Below, piece after piece: positions 42,940 through 48,798 of a DNA stretch of 49,322 nucleotides. Source of the DNA: Bryobacterales bacterium (GTDB lineage: Bacteria; Acidobacteriota; Terriglobia; Bryobacterales; Bryobacteraceae); the NCBI GenBank assembly GCA_003167255.1, contig PMTR01000014.1, positions 182 to 49,503 of the forward strand, read 5' to 3'. The first letter of the stretch is position 1; every line of letters starts with the position of its first letter. Below the pieces are notes generated by a model. It ran no database searches and was not told where the DNA came from. It saw only the letters and a program-made list of their open reading frames with translations. A program made the translations under genes and the position numbers.

Positions 42940-43000
42940 TGTAACATTTTCGACGGATTGCTTTATTACCGTATCAAGGCCGGAGGGTGACCACAGCGGA
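42940..43000 (+). promoter_or_regulatory. Decayed copy of the kinase leader with TGTAAC motif
   Basis: TGTAAC (42940-42945), then 16 bases, then TTTATT (42962-42967), matches the leader of the kinase at 45399-45426. The likeness continues through ACCGTA and into the kinase's first codons, with GTGACCACAGCGGA against ATGACCGCAGCGGA. The frame from 42987 (MTTAD) then leaves the kinase pattern. It lies 110-160 bases before the secreted duplicated-domain gene and may still drive it. Confidence 0.55.
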
Positions 43001-43101
43001 CGCGGTCGGTTCCCGGCCAAGTGCAGGATCGGCGGGTGGCGGCTGGAATTCAACTGAACAAGACCCGGGAGTTCAAATTGAAATCCCGATGGAGGTACAC
43101 C

Positions 43102-43806
43102 ATGTTTACTCGATCTCTTCGTGGCGCCGGGGTGGCTGTATTCTTTGCGTCGCTTGTATGCGCGCAAGTAGGCCCCGACGGTCACTGGGAAGGCTCCTTT
43201 ACGGTGAACAATCGCGAGATGGGGCTGTCGCTCGACCTGGCGAAGAACGCGAAATCGGAGTGGATCGCCAGTATGGGCCTTCCCTCCGAAAACGCGACCG
43301 GCCTTGTCGTGATGGATGTGGCGGTAAACGGCAAGTCCGTGAAATTTGTTGCCGTCGAACTCCGGATGGCTCCATTCGACCTGACCTTGGGCTCGGATGG
43401 AAGGATGAAGGGGACGATCTCCAGCCCGCAGGGCTCGCTGCCGATCGAATTCAAGCGCACGGGCGAGGCAAAGGTGGAACTGATCCCGGCGAGCCCGGCG
43501 GTGTCGAAGGAACTCGAAGGAGATTGGGAAGGCTCGATCGAGTCGCCCAACGGCGCGTTCCGGTTGGTATTCCATTTCAAGAACCAACCGGACCACACGG
43601 TCGCGGCGACCATCGACAGTAGCCTCGACGCGAGCATGGTGGGCATGCCCCTCAATAACGTGAAACAGACGGGTCAGAAGGTGGAGTTCGGAATGAAGAT
43701 CGCCGGCGGCGCCTTTCAGGGAAGCCTGAACAAGGAAGGTACCGAACTGGCCGGACAGTTGATCCACGAGGCAAACAGCACGCCGTTGACGCTGCGGAAG
43801 AAATAG
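43102..43806 (+). CDS. Secreted protein with duplicated beta domain
   Basis: 234 residues from ATG 43102 with GGAGG at 43091-43095. A signal peptide (residues 1-21, ending VCAQ) is followed by two related halves. One opens GHWEGSFTVNNREMGLSLDLAKN and the other GDWEGSIESPNGAFRLVFHFKN. Each continues with an 'S/A-G-...-P....' segment and a G..V.F....G.F.G.L pattern. The family is common in secreted acidobacterial proteins, sometimes beside peptidase or hydrolase domains. No active site is visible. It lies downstream of the leader copy that carries the putative ECF promoter, so it may belong to that regulon. Confidence 0.8.
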   Translation: MFTRSLRGAGVAVFFASLVCAQVGPDGHWEGSFTVNNREMGLSLDLAKNAKSEWIASMGLPSENATGLVVMDVAVNGKSVKFVAVELRMAPFDLTLGSDGRMKGTISSPQGSLPIEFKRTGEAKVELIPASPAVSKELEGDWEGSIESPNGAFRLVFHFKNQPDHTVAATIDSSLDASMVGMPLNNVKQTGQKVEFGMKIAGGAFQGSLNKEGTELAGQLIHEANSTPLTLRKK

Positions 43807-43991
43807 GCCGTTCAGAGGACTCGCCGCCGCCGTGCATCACGTAGGTTTGTGACGGGTGGTCCCGATCCACTCCGCCAGAGGAGTGGCATCGAGCTATGGA
43901 ACTGGCCGCCATGCTCGCCTTTAGATGCCGCTGAAAAGCAGACTGCAGCACCTGTTTATCATATAATCCTTAAGCAGGTACGAGGTCCGCT

Positions 43992-44735
43992 GTGGCAACG
44001 AGCGACGAGACGGCCGAGAGTCATTCCCGCCGGTTTCCCACCACGTCGTGGACCATGGTATCCGCCGCGGGCCGCCACTCATGCGGTTCCGCGGACGCTC
44101 TGAGCAAGCTGTGCGCCACGTACTGGTTGCCGGTCTATGCGTTCATCCGGAGAAAAGGATACTCGCCGGAGGAGTCCGAAGACCTGTGCCAGTCCTTCTT
44201 CACCCGGGTTCTGGAGCGCGGCACGCTGGGTGAAGCCCGGCGGGAACGCGGCAAGTTCCGCTCCTTCCTGCTGGCGTCGGCGACCCACTTTGTGGCGAAT
44301 GAGTGGGACCGCTCGCGGGCTCAGAAGCGTGGCGGAGATTGCGCCACGCTTTCGTTCGATTTCGAGGCCGGCGAAGAGAGCTATCACCGCGAGCCGTACC
44401 ACGAGCTCACGCCGGAAGCGCTGTACGAGCGGCAGTGGGCGATGGCCCTGCTCGACCGGGTGCTGAGGCGGCAGCGCGAAGAACACGCCCGGCGGGGCCA
44501 GGCCGCGCAGTTCGATCTGCTGAAAGTGTTTCTGACCGGCGATCAGGACCGGGGCTCGACCCATGAGTTGACCGCGAAGCTGGATATGAGCGACGCCGCG
44601 ATCCGCACGGCGGTGCATCGCTTGCGGCGTCGTTATGCGGAACTGCTGCGGGAGGAAATCGCAGCCACGGTAGCCGATCCCGAGGAAGTGGACGGCGAGA
44701 TCCGGTTTCTGCTGGCGGCCCTGGAGCCGGTGTAA
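43992..44735 (+). CDS. ECF-family RNA polymerase sigma factor of the kinase-linked type
   Basis: 247 residues from GTG 43992. Region 2 contains LPVYAFIRRKGYSPEESEDLCQSFFTRVLE, with a -10-contact helix following at FRSFLLASATHFVANEWDR. Region 4 is the helix-turn-helix GSTHELTAKLDMSDAAIRTAVHRLRRRYAELLREEI. The middle is longer than in classic ECF factors, as in the group encoded next to Ser/Thr kinases in Acidobacteriota and Planctomycetes. No anti-sigma gene follows, and control by kinase phosphorylation is the likely alternative. TATAAT lies at 43962-43967 without a convincing -35. Its stop codon overlaps TGTAAC of the first junction copy. Confidence 0.9.
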   Translation: MATSDETAESHSRRFPTTSWTMVSAAGRHSCGSADALSKLCATYWLPVYAFIRRKGYSPEESEDLCQSFFTRVLERGTLGEARRERGKFRSFLLASATHFVANEWDRSRAQKRGGDCATLSFDFEAGEESYHREPYHELTPEALYERQWAMALLDRVLRRQREEHARRGQAAQFDLLKVFLTGDQDRGSTHELTAKLDMSDAAIRTAVHRLRRRYAELLREEIAATVADPEEVDGEIRFLLAALEPV

Positions 44736-48400: not shown

Positions 48401-48626
48401 TCCGGATGGAAGCCGCATTGTCACGGGGACGCGGCTCTCTGGTGTGGTACAGATTTGGGACGCGGTTGGCTACCAGCCGTTGCTGACCATGCAGGCGGAT
48501 GACGAGATAAGGTTCCTTACGTTTACTCCTGACGGTTCGCGGCTGCTGGCGATGTGTCCCGACGATGTTCGCGTGTGGGACACAACCACGGCCCACCCGC
48601 CGCCGGAACGCGCGCGCGGCCATTGA
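45447..48626 (+). CDS. Ser/Thr protein kinase with zinc ribbon, membrane helix and WD40 propeller
   Basis: 1059 residues. An N-terminal zinc ribbon has Cys7, Cys10, Cys23 and Cys26. The kinase domain covers about 50-350, with the glycine loop GEGGMG (60-65), Lys83 in VALKII, HRD at 174-176 in [10 protein letters not shown], DFG at 197-199 and [11 protein letters not shown]. A membrane helix (375-399) and a short coil (to about 440) precede a WD40 propeller of about 10-14 repeats to the C-terminus. The clearest read [23 protein letters not shown]-like. All catalytic residues are present, so it should be active. The ribbon and kinase face the cytoplasm and the propeller faces outside, as in Hanks-type sensors. 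It directly follows the ECF factor gene. Confidence 0.95.
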   Translation: [1059 protein letters not shown]

Positions 48627-48663
48627 GACCACGGTATGAGGACTCCACTGTGGTCCCTTTTTT
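48627..48663 (+). terminator. Intrinsic terminator after the kinase gene
   Basis: Starting at the base after the kinase TGA, GACCACGGT (48627-48635) pairs with ACTGTGGTC (48647-48655), a 9-bp stem with one G-U pair and an 11-base loop. CC and six T residues (48658-48663) follow. The transcript of the sigma-kinase unit should end here. Confidence 0.8.
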
Positions 48664-48770
48664 GCCGGCTCAGATCTGGAGGGGAAGGCCAGTACCTGCC
48701 GGTGACAACCGCGCACCGGTTTATTGGGGCTTCCCTGCAATCCCCGCTTCGGAATCTCGCTGTTCTCTCT

Positions 48771-48798
48771 TGTAACGAGCCGGCTCTCTTTTCTTTAC
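48771..48798 (+). promoter_or_regulatory. Candidate ECF promoter of the last gene
   Basis: TGTAAC (48771-48776), 16 bases, CTTTAC (48793-48798), 22 bases before the ATG at 48821. The -35 and spacing equal those before the kinase, but the surrounding bases differ, so it is not a copy of that junction. It is the only independent match to the motif in this part of the window. Confidence 0.4.

Follow-up and report, generated by a model that had tools for sequence, protein, structure and literature searches.

Can a sigma factor be assigned its own promoters, and a regulon, from the arrangement of genes and short repeated motifs around it? The question is raised by a locus in the 49,322-nt stretch of Bryobacterales bacterium contig PMTR01000014.1 (GCA_003167255.1) that was analysed here and is called the window. 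A gene for an extracytoplasmic function (ECF)-type sigma factor (43992..44735, + strand) lies near a gene for a large Ser/Thr protein kinase (45447-48626), with a small YndJ-like gene in between, and the hexamer TGTAAC recurs around these genes at a similar distance from a second block. We consider it likely, from sequence comparison, that these genes form a kinase-linked ECF sigma module served by a promoter type of its own, TGTAAC-N15/16-CYTTA(Y), through which the sigma factor would drive a small local regulon consisting of the kinase and of envelope and secreted proteins. The original prediction, that the factor at 43992 drives the kinase and envelope or secreted genes, was weak as judged from the window and was borne out by the comparison of genomes; that this sigma factor recognises the sites is what we infer.

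The loose pattern TGTAACN{15,17}YTTA has exactly four matches in the window, all on the + strand, at 42940, 44731, 45399 and 48771, the positions that had been predicted. The sites are non-random in the window, with 0.03 matches expected (mean of 100 dinucleotide shuffles) and no shuffle reaching four; by themselves, four sites are weak evidence for a regulon. The distance to the second block had been given as exactly 16 bases, which holds for the sites at 42940, 44731 and 45399, but at 48771 the distance to YTTA is 17, or 16 if counted to CTTTA. The site at 42940..42967 (TGTAAC-N15-CTTTATT) precedes a secreted-protein gene and is a copy of the kinase-leader site; its orthologue in genome G001 reads CGTAAC. 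At 44731..44758 (TGTAAC-N16-CTTATT) the hexamer overlaps the sigma stop codon, being made by the last sigma codons (GTG TAA C), and the site is followed by a decayed kinase-start piece and then by the YndJ-like gene. The kinase itself is preceded by the site at 45399..45426 (TGTAAC-N15-CTTTATT), before which stands a duplicated sigma gene end. The post-kinase site at 48771..48799 (TGTAAC-N16-CTTTACT) lies before the last gene of the window, and a similar site is found at C141:2487 of the same genome (G000, 7.35 Mb).

Three of these sites are related by descent. Identity is 79% over 146 nt between 44715-44859 and 45383-45528, and again 79% between 42940-43000 and 45399-45460; judged by sequence, the copies at 42940, 44731 and 45399 stem from one junction made up of the sigma end, a spacer and the kinase start. 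Homology of the three had been pointed out before, and with these identities their non-independence is stronger than was noted. The segment at 44731 had also been described as a decayed kinase copy. A decayed kinase-start piece does follow it; however, the segment appears to be a leader belonging to the YndJ-like gene, since G001 has sigma, site, YndJ-like gene, site and kinase in that order and G030 has sigma, site and kinase, and since the pair of site and YndJ-like gene, present in G001, is found again in G261 and G262. Set against the kinase copy of their own genome, six secondary copies agreed with it at 63/66 motif positions and at 408/567 other positions (p 3e-6), a value that is too small because most copies were found via the motif and share ancestry. 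On C141, where the last gene has a second copy, one further fragment precedes that copy but no longer has the element. At that sequence (G000:C141:800-960, L103) an apparent lipoprotein gene start is fused to a sigma-gene end (GCGGCCCTGGAGCGGGTGTAA), and the locus has therefore probably been reshuffled there more than once.

Frequency of the motif across the genome, which the original prediction had offered as its own test, gave different answers for two patterns. With the loose pattern, the search for genome-wide enrichment failed, since the own genome holds 14 matches vs 31 for the reversed pattern used as control, which is background; the loose motif alone is therefore uninformative at this scale. 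The stricter pattern TGTAACN{15,16}CTTTAYT is not at background in the own genome, where it has four matches (42940, 45399, 48771 and C141:2487, the last outside the window and before a secreted-protein gene) and 0 reversed-control matches; the site at 44731 fails this pattern. Over 61 genomes it gave 10 matches vs 7 reversed, with 7/10 in the own genome, G001 and G030, whose sigma factors are 74-100% identical.

Related sigma loci were collected by using a sigma alignment to scan a single genome of each species, and the best 80 of 355 loci were used, 41 from Acidobacteriota and 39 from other phyla as split by record title. Among these best 80, homologues of the window sigma also occur in Planctomycetes and Verrucomicrobia records. 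Two loci (L161 and L187), from records titled Akkermansia muciniphila MAG (metagenome-assembled genome), carry ECF genes of the window-sigma family. An HRD-type kinase motif lies near the sigma gene on the same strand in 66/80 loci; the kinase comes first in 22 Acidobacteriota and 5 other loci, and the sigma gene in 12 and 27, respectively. With no preselection of sites, the top hexamers in the 200 nt before the sigma gene in Acidobacteriota included TGTAAC (25/41 loci, 0.5 expected), TCCTTA (23/41, 0.8 expected) and CCTTAT (23/41, 1.1 expected). In the other phyla the best hexamers in the 200 nt after the sigma gene were GTAACC (16/38, 0.6 expected) and TGTAAC (15/38, 0.7 expected), as in TGTAACCTTTCCCGGCTTTTGCTTTTGT of L148. 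Because TGTAAC is also enriched after sigma in other phyla, the putative −35 block looks old; the −10 block appears to vary by lineage.

Within the Acidobacteriota loci the loose pattern matched at 24 sites upstream of sigma, at 17 divergent to the kinase (on the opposite strand, by the 5′ end of the kinase gene), at two sigma ends and at three further places, two of them before module genes; the reversed pattern had 0 matches in the same loci (676 kb, both strands). The sigma-upstream sites lie 58-113 nt before the start of the sigma match, and the divergent sites between the starts of two divergent genes (n=17). Gene order predicts where the site stands. Nineteen of the 22 kinase-before-sigma loci have a sigma-upstream TGTAAC-N16/17-YTTA and 17 have the divergent site as well, and a site was scored at 4 of the 12 loci in which sigma precedes the kinase.

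Presence of the element was also compared with presence of the sigma factor. Among 237 genomes of the family, the pattern TGTAACN{13,14}TTCCTTA was found in 23/27 genomes that have a close sigma (E ≤ 1e-110) vs 17/210 others, a co-occurrence that is partly circular, as the pattern was designed on loci overlapping these genomes; the reversed pattern was found in 4/27 and 19/210. Three of the four close-sigma exceptions carry the CTTTA variant (G000, G001 and G169, the last with the sigma coordinates of G261), and the matches at L226, L232, L233, L234, L235 and L244, in genomes scored as having no close sigma, adjoin a module kinase or sigma start. Because the family pattern came from overlapping loci, the analysis was repeated on a class sample of 299 genomes scored for sigma at E 1e-60, 232 of them outside the family. 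The sole sigma carrier among these 232, G311, has a site between kinase and sigma; the pattern occurs in 10 of the other 231 and the reversed control in 25/232. Together with the sigma loci, these comparisons show two-block, promoter-like elements recurring at promoter positions, with a spacer varying by one base, and tied to close relatives of the window sigma. Two near-duplicate contigs of one genome (L236 and L237 of G201) bear two motif sites each, ~2 kb apart, one divergent to a kinase and the other next to a different gene, which suggests that the module is duplicated in that genome.

The extent of the putative regulon was examined in five genomes of the window clade with the pattern GTAACN{15,16}CTTTANT. 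Of 18 matches (reversed control, 11), 15 lie before or beside module genes; the three not tied to the module are at G001:C388, G030:C312 (sequence only) and G261:C913 (contig end). The sites precede the kinase, membrane-protein genes, secreted-protein genes and a TRAP-transporter operon. All four genome-wide matches of G262 fall in one module, which runs sigma, site, kinase, site, membrane protein, site, YndJ-like gene, last-gene orthologue, site and secreted protein, followed by the TRAP components TatT, DctP and DctQM (assigned by similarity to own-genome genes). C141 of the own genome has the same membrane protein, the second last-gene copy, a hydrolase, the site at 2487 and the orthologous secreted protein, and further on TatT, DctP and a DctQ-DctM fusion. 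The last-gene repeat at the end of the window contig shares 95.8% identity with C141 over 503 nt, and since the contig ends where this repeat ends, the module may go on there. In G261 a TatT-like TRAP gene is directly preceded by a separate site. The window sigma gene, in contrast to that of the kinase-first clade, seems to have no visible self-driving promoter, because a TATAAT-type promoter precedes it in G000 (43962..43967, + strand), G001, G261 and G030; TATAAT is absent in G262. The supply of sigma factor may therefore be constitutive and its control post-translational.

According to the model that we propose, RNA polymerase carrying the window sigma would read the TGTAAC sites. In the window clade the sigma factor would probably be made from a housekeeping promoter and would drive the kinase, membrane proteins and secreted proteins and, beyond the window, the TRAP transporter operon; in the kinase-first clade it would drive itself, probably in a self-amplifying manner, together with the divergent secreted-protein gene. 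Duplication of kinase-leader copies, promoter included, before further genes would have brought these under the same control. The activator of the sigma factor would be the neighbouring kinase and not an anti-sigma factor. No anti-sigma domain was found by Pfam or NCBIfam in the flanking open reading frames (ORFs; 43021-43806 and 44978-45328), although a divergent anti-sigma factor could escape such a search.

Several observations weigh against this model. The element is missing from 3/22 Acidobacteriota kinase-before-sigma loci and, as scored, from 8 of the 12 sigma-before-kinase loci, one of which (L118) reads CGTAAC. In other phyla, 15/27 sigma-before-kinase loci lack TGTAAC within 150 nt, and it is found within that distance in 0/5 kinase-first loci. 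The pattern occurs in 5/40 family genomes whose only sigma is more distant (E 1e-110 to 1e-30) vs 12/170 without such a sigma; the element is therefore tied to a subset of this sigma family. In the whole class sample the pattern is present in 4/9 sigma genomes, those without it being G000, G080, G210, G236 and G238. That the aligned sites are rich in information at TGTAAC and YTTA is a matter of construction, and Fisher values overstate significance, as copies and related genomes are not independent. To these points belong the background frequency of the loose pattern and the partial circularity described above, as well as the stop-codon sites and the poor conservation of 48771, which bear on particular rival explanations.

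One such explanation is that TGTAAC is a by-product, a stop codon plus the next base, and that the copies hitch-hiked as pieces of a duplicated gene end and do not act as promoters. The hexamer is indeed sigma stop codon context at 44731 and in G001, G261 and G030, the site at 45399 and the last-gene copy on C141 carry the same sigma-end fragment, and the kinase stop codon makes up TGTAAC in 6/24 sigma-upstream sites, as the sigma stop does in 3/15 other-phylum sites. However, 17/24 sigma-upstream sites lie 8-89 nt past the kinase stop (1 locus is undecided) and 12/15 other-phylum sites 9-162 nt past the sigma stop, the 17 divergent sites have a gene start on either side, and a stop codon leaves the second block at its fixed distance unexplained, so that we regard this explanation as very improbable. 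We also think it unlikely that the sites, though genuine promoters, are used by another sigma factor or regulator whose only tie to the locus is its control. Co-location does not prove recognition by the window sigma, the site is missing from many loci that have a homologous sigma, and several kinds of ECF factors use AAC-type −35 boxes; yet presence of the element tracks the close sigma across genomes, including one held-out genome (G311), and the element precedes sigma itself in the kinase-first clade and follows it in other phyla. A narrower doubt concerns the site at 48771, and with it C141:2487, which might be a chance match or inherited scrap while the kinase-leader sites are real. The site had been placed before the last gene, where it does stand in the window, but the last-gene orthologues of G001, G030 and G016 are not preceded by it, and its spacing to YTTA departs from that of the other three sites. 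On the other hand, both 48771 and C141:2487 fit the strict pattern, which has no control match in their genome, G262 has a C141-type site before the orthologous secreted gene, and CGTAAC-type sites similar to 48771 are found after the kinase, at its end, in G261 and G262. This narrower explanation is possible, but we tend to doubt it.

The outputs behind the divergent site of the kinase-first clade were examined as well. From 67 matches to TGTAACN{13,14}TTCCTTA, 20 regions were examined and 14 kept by eye as divergent-type; those not kept were L232, L233 and L244 (which precede sigma), L243 and L245 (other type) and L238 (no match). In L245 a signal-peptide-like ORF follows at 205 nt. With the 17 sites from the 80 loci, 33 divergent-type sites were included, some from closely related loci, and two had no usable ORF. 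The remaining 31/33 have one 44-143 nt downstream, and 31/31 of these ORFs have a predicted signal peptide by a crude hydrophobicity rule that also accepts 50/141 control ORFs. The 31 proteins form eight BLAST-separate families (9, 6, 6, 5, 2, 1, 1 and 1 members). Five of six family representatives have no Pfam match, one of the five having HAF repeats (NCBIfam), and the sixth is a DUF4394 protein.

The sigma factors of many pairs of loci with different output families are 88-91% identical (91.4% for L127 vs L143), and the leaders behind the divergent promoter are mostly still recognisably alike. Our reading is that promoter and leader were kept while the output gene behind them was exchanged. 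The alternative is that the cassette moved to new neighbours, and the genes after sigma do also differ among the four loci that were mapped (L120, L127, L130 and L143). Preferring output exchange, we give an even chance to the broader proposal that the sigma-kinase pair is a portable control cassette, in which unrelated secreted-protein genes are swapped in behind a fixed divergent promoter and leader, and that the window clade obtains the same result by duplicating the kinase leader before new genes. If so, one sensing device would gain new surface or secreted outputs via recombination just behind the conserved leader, and secreted outputs that can be exchanged behind a conserved promoter would clearly illustrate how a signalling system gains targets.

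The leaders of the divergent sites (GTGAGCCGGATT..CCGGC; e.g. L230:245-318) show a GCCGG/CCGGC-type hairpin in many single-sequence folds. A consensus RNA structure was sought with RNAalifold on a MAFFT alignment, which gave no pair, and no claim for a structured RNA is made. In antisense, the conserved leader resembles a tRNA T-arm by eye; ARAGORN calls tRNA-Glu in L230, one of nine loci, and in the eight loci searched with Rfam the sole match was a tRNA elsewhere in L127.

Pairs of ECF factor and kinase, and autoregulatory ECF promoters, are already known kinds of system. In the sections of the literature available to us, kinase-linked ECF factors are predicted in several phyla and the experimentally tested examples are of ECF43, from Proteobacteria. 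ECF43 factors pair with Hanks-type kinases, as in EcfP-PknT of Vibrio parahaemolyticus and EcfK-PknS of Xanthomonas citri; they have lost the acidic DAED motif and use a phosphorylated Thr instead. The window sigma has ESED at this place and so lacks the ECF43 hallmark. In the DAED columns of 81 sequences the first or last residue is acidic in 81/81, both are acidic in 47/81, and S/T occurs within the four in 11/81. Since an acidic residue is kept throughout, charge restoration of the ECF43 type is not directly applicable. Outputs differ too, those of ECF43 being type VI secretion and polymyxin resistance. ECF59, ECF61, ECF62 and ECF217, with model members in Planctomycetes, are listed in the available part of a review as probably under the control of a neighbouring kinase. 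The review adds that DAED may be retained in kinase-linked groups outside ECF43, whose mechanisms call for further study (PMC8999054). The available passages give no promoter for these four groups. According to the portion available of another source, one usual route to predicting ECF promoters is a motif that autoregulated sigma genes share upstream (PMC8103513). Whereas autoregulated ECF factors have the motif before sigma, the window clade has it on the kinase and outputs instead. No description of this promoter or regulon was found in the open literature, judged by titles, although the ECF classification may list a predicted promoter for the group. With a promoter defined, a direct reporter would be at hand for finding the signal, the way the system is activated and its regulon in Acidobacteriota.

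The individual genes of the module vary in how well they match known families. ECF factors consist of regions sigma2 and sigma4 alone and have ~200-250 aa. The sigma factor (247 aa) is its own genome's sole match of its kind at E 0.001; residues 35-214 match NCBIfam sigma70-ECF at E 4.9e-6 with 26.3 bits, below the cut-off of 42.9, and there is no Pfam match at 0.001. The kinase (45447..48626, + strand) has 1059 aa, with WD40 repeats and a transmembrane segment seen by inspection. The YndJ-like gene (44978..45328, + strand) encodes a 116-aa protein, of membrane nature by inspection, whose match to PF14158 (E 2.2e-4) is weak and below the cut-off. The secreted protein behind the first site (43102..43806, + strand) has two similar halves, recognised by inspection, and a signal peptide assigned by inspection and the crude rule; the ORF that contains it (43021-43806) has no Pfam or NCBIfam family. 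The last gene (48836..49321, + strand) also encodes a secreted protein; its start was set by counting codons and by comparing it with G262, and the ORF as listed begins at 48821. Just upstream of the module, 42093-42551 encodes a PD-(D/E)XK nuclease-superfamily protein (PF13366, E 5.9e-37). Beside the secreted-protein gene, 42533-42771 contains nested inverted repeats, one with perfect 28-nt arms (42574-42601 and 42698-42725), which are possibly a small mobile repeat.

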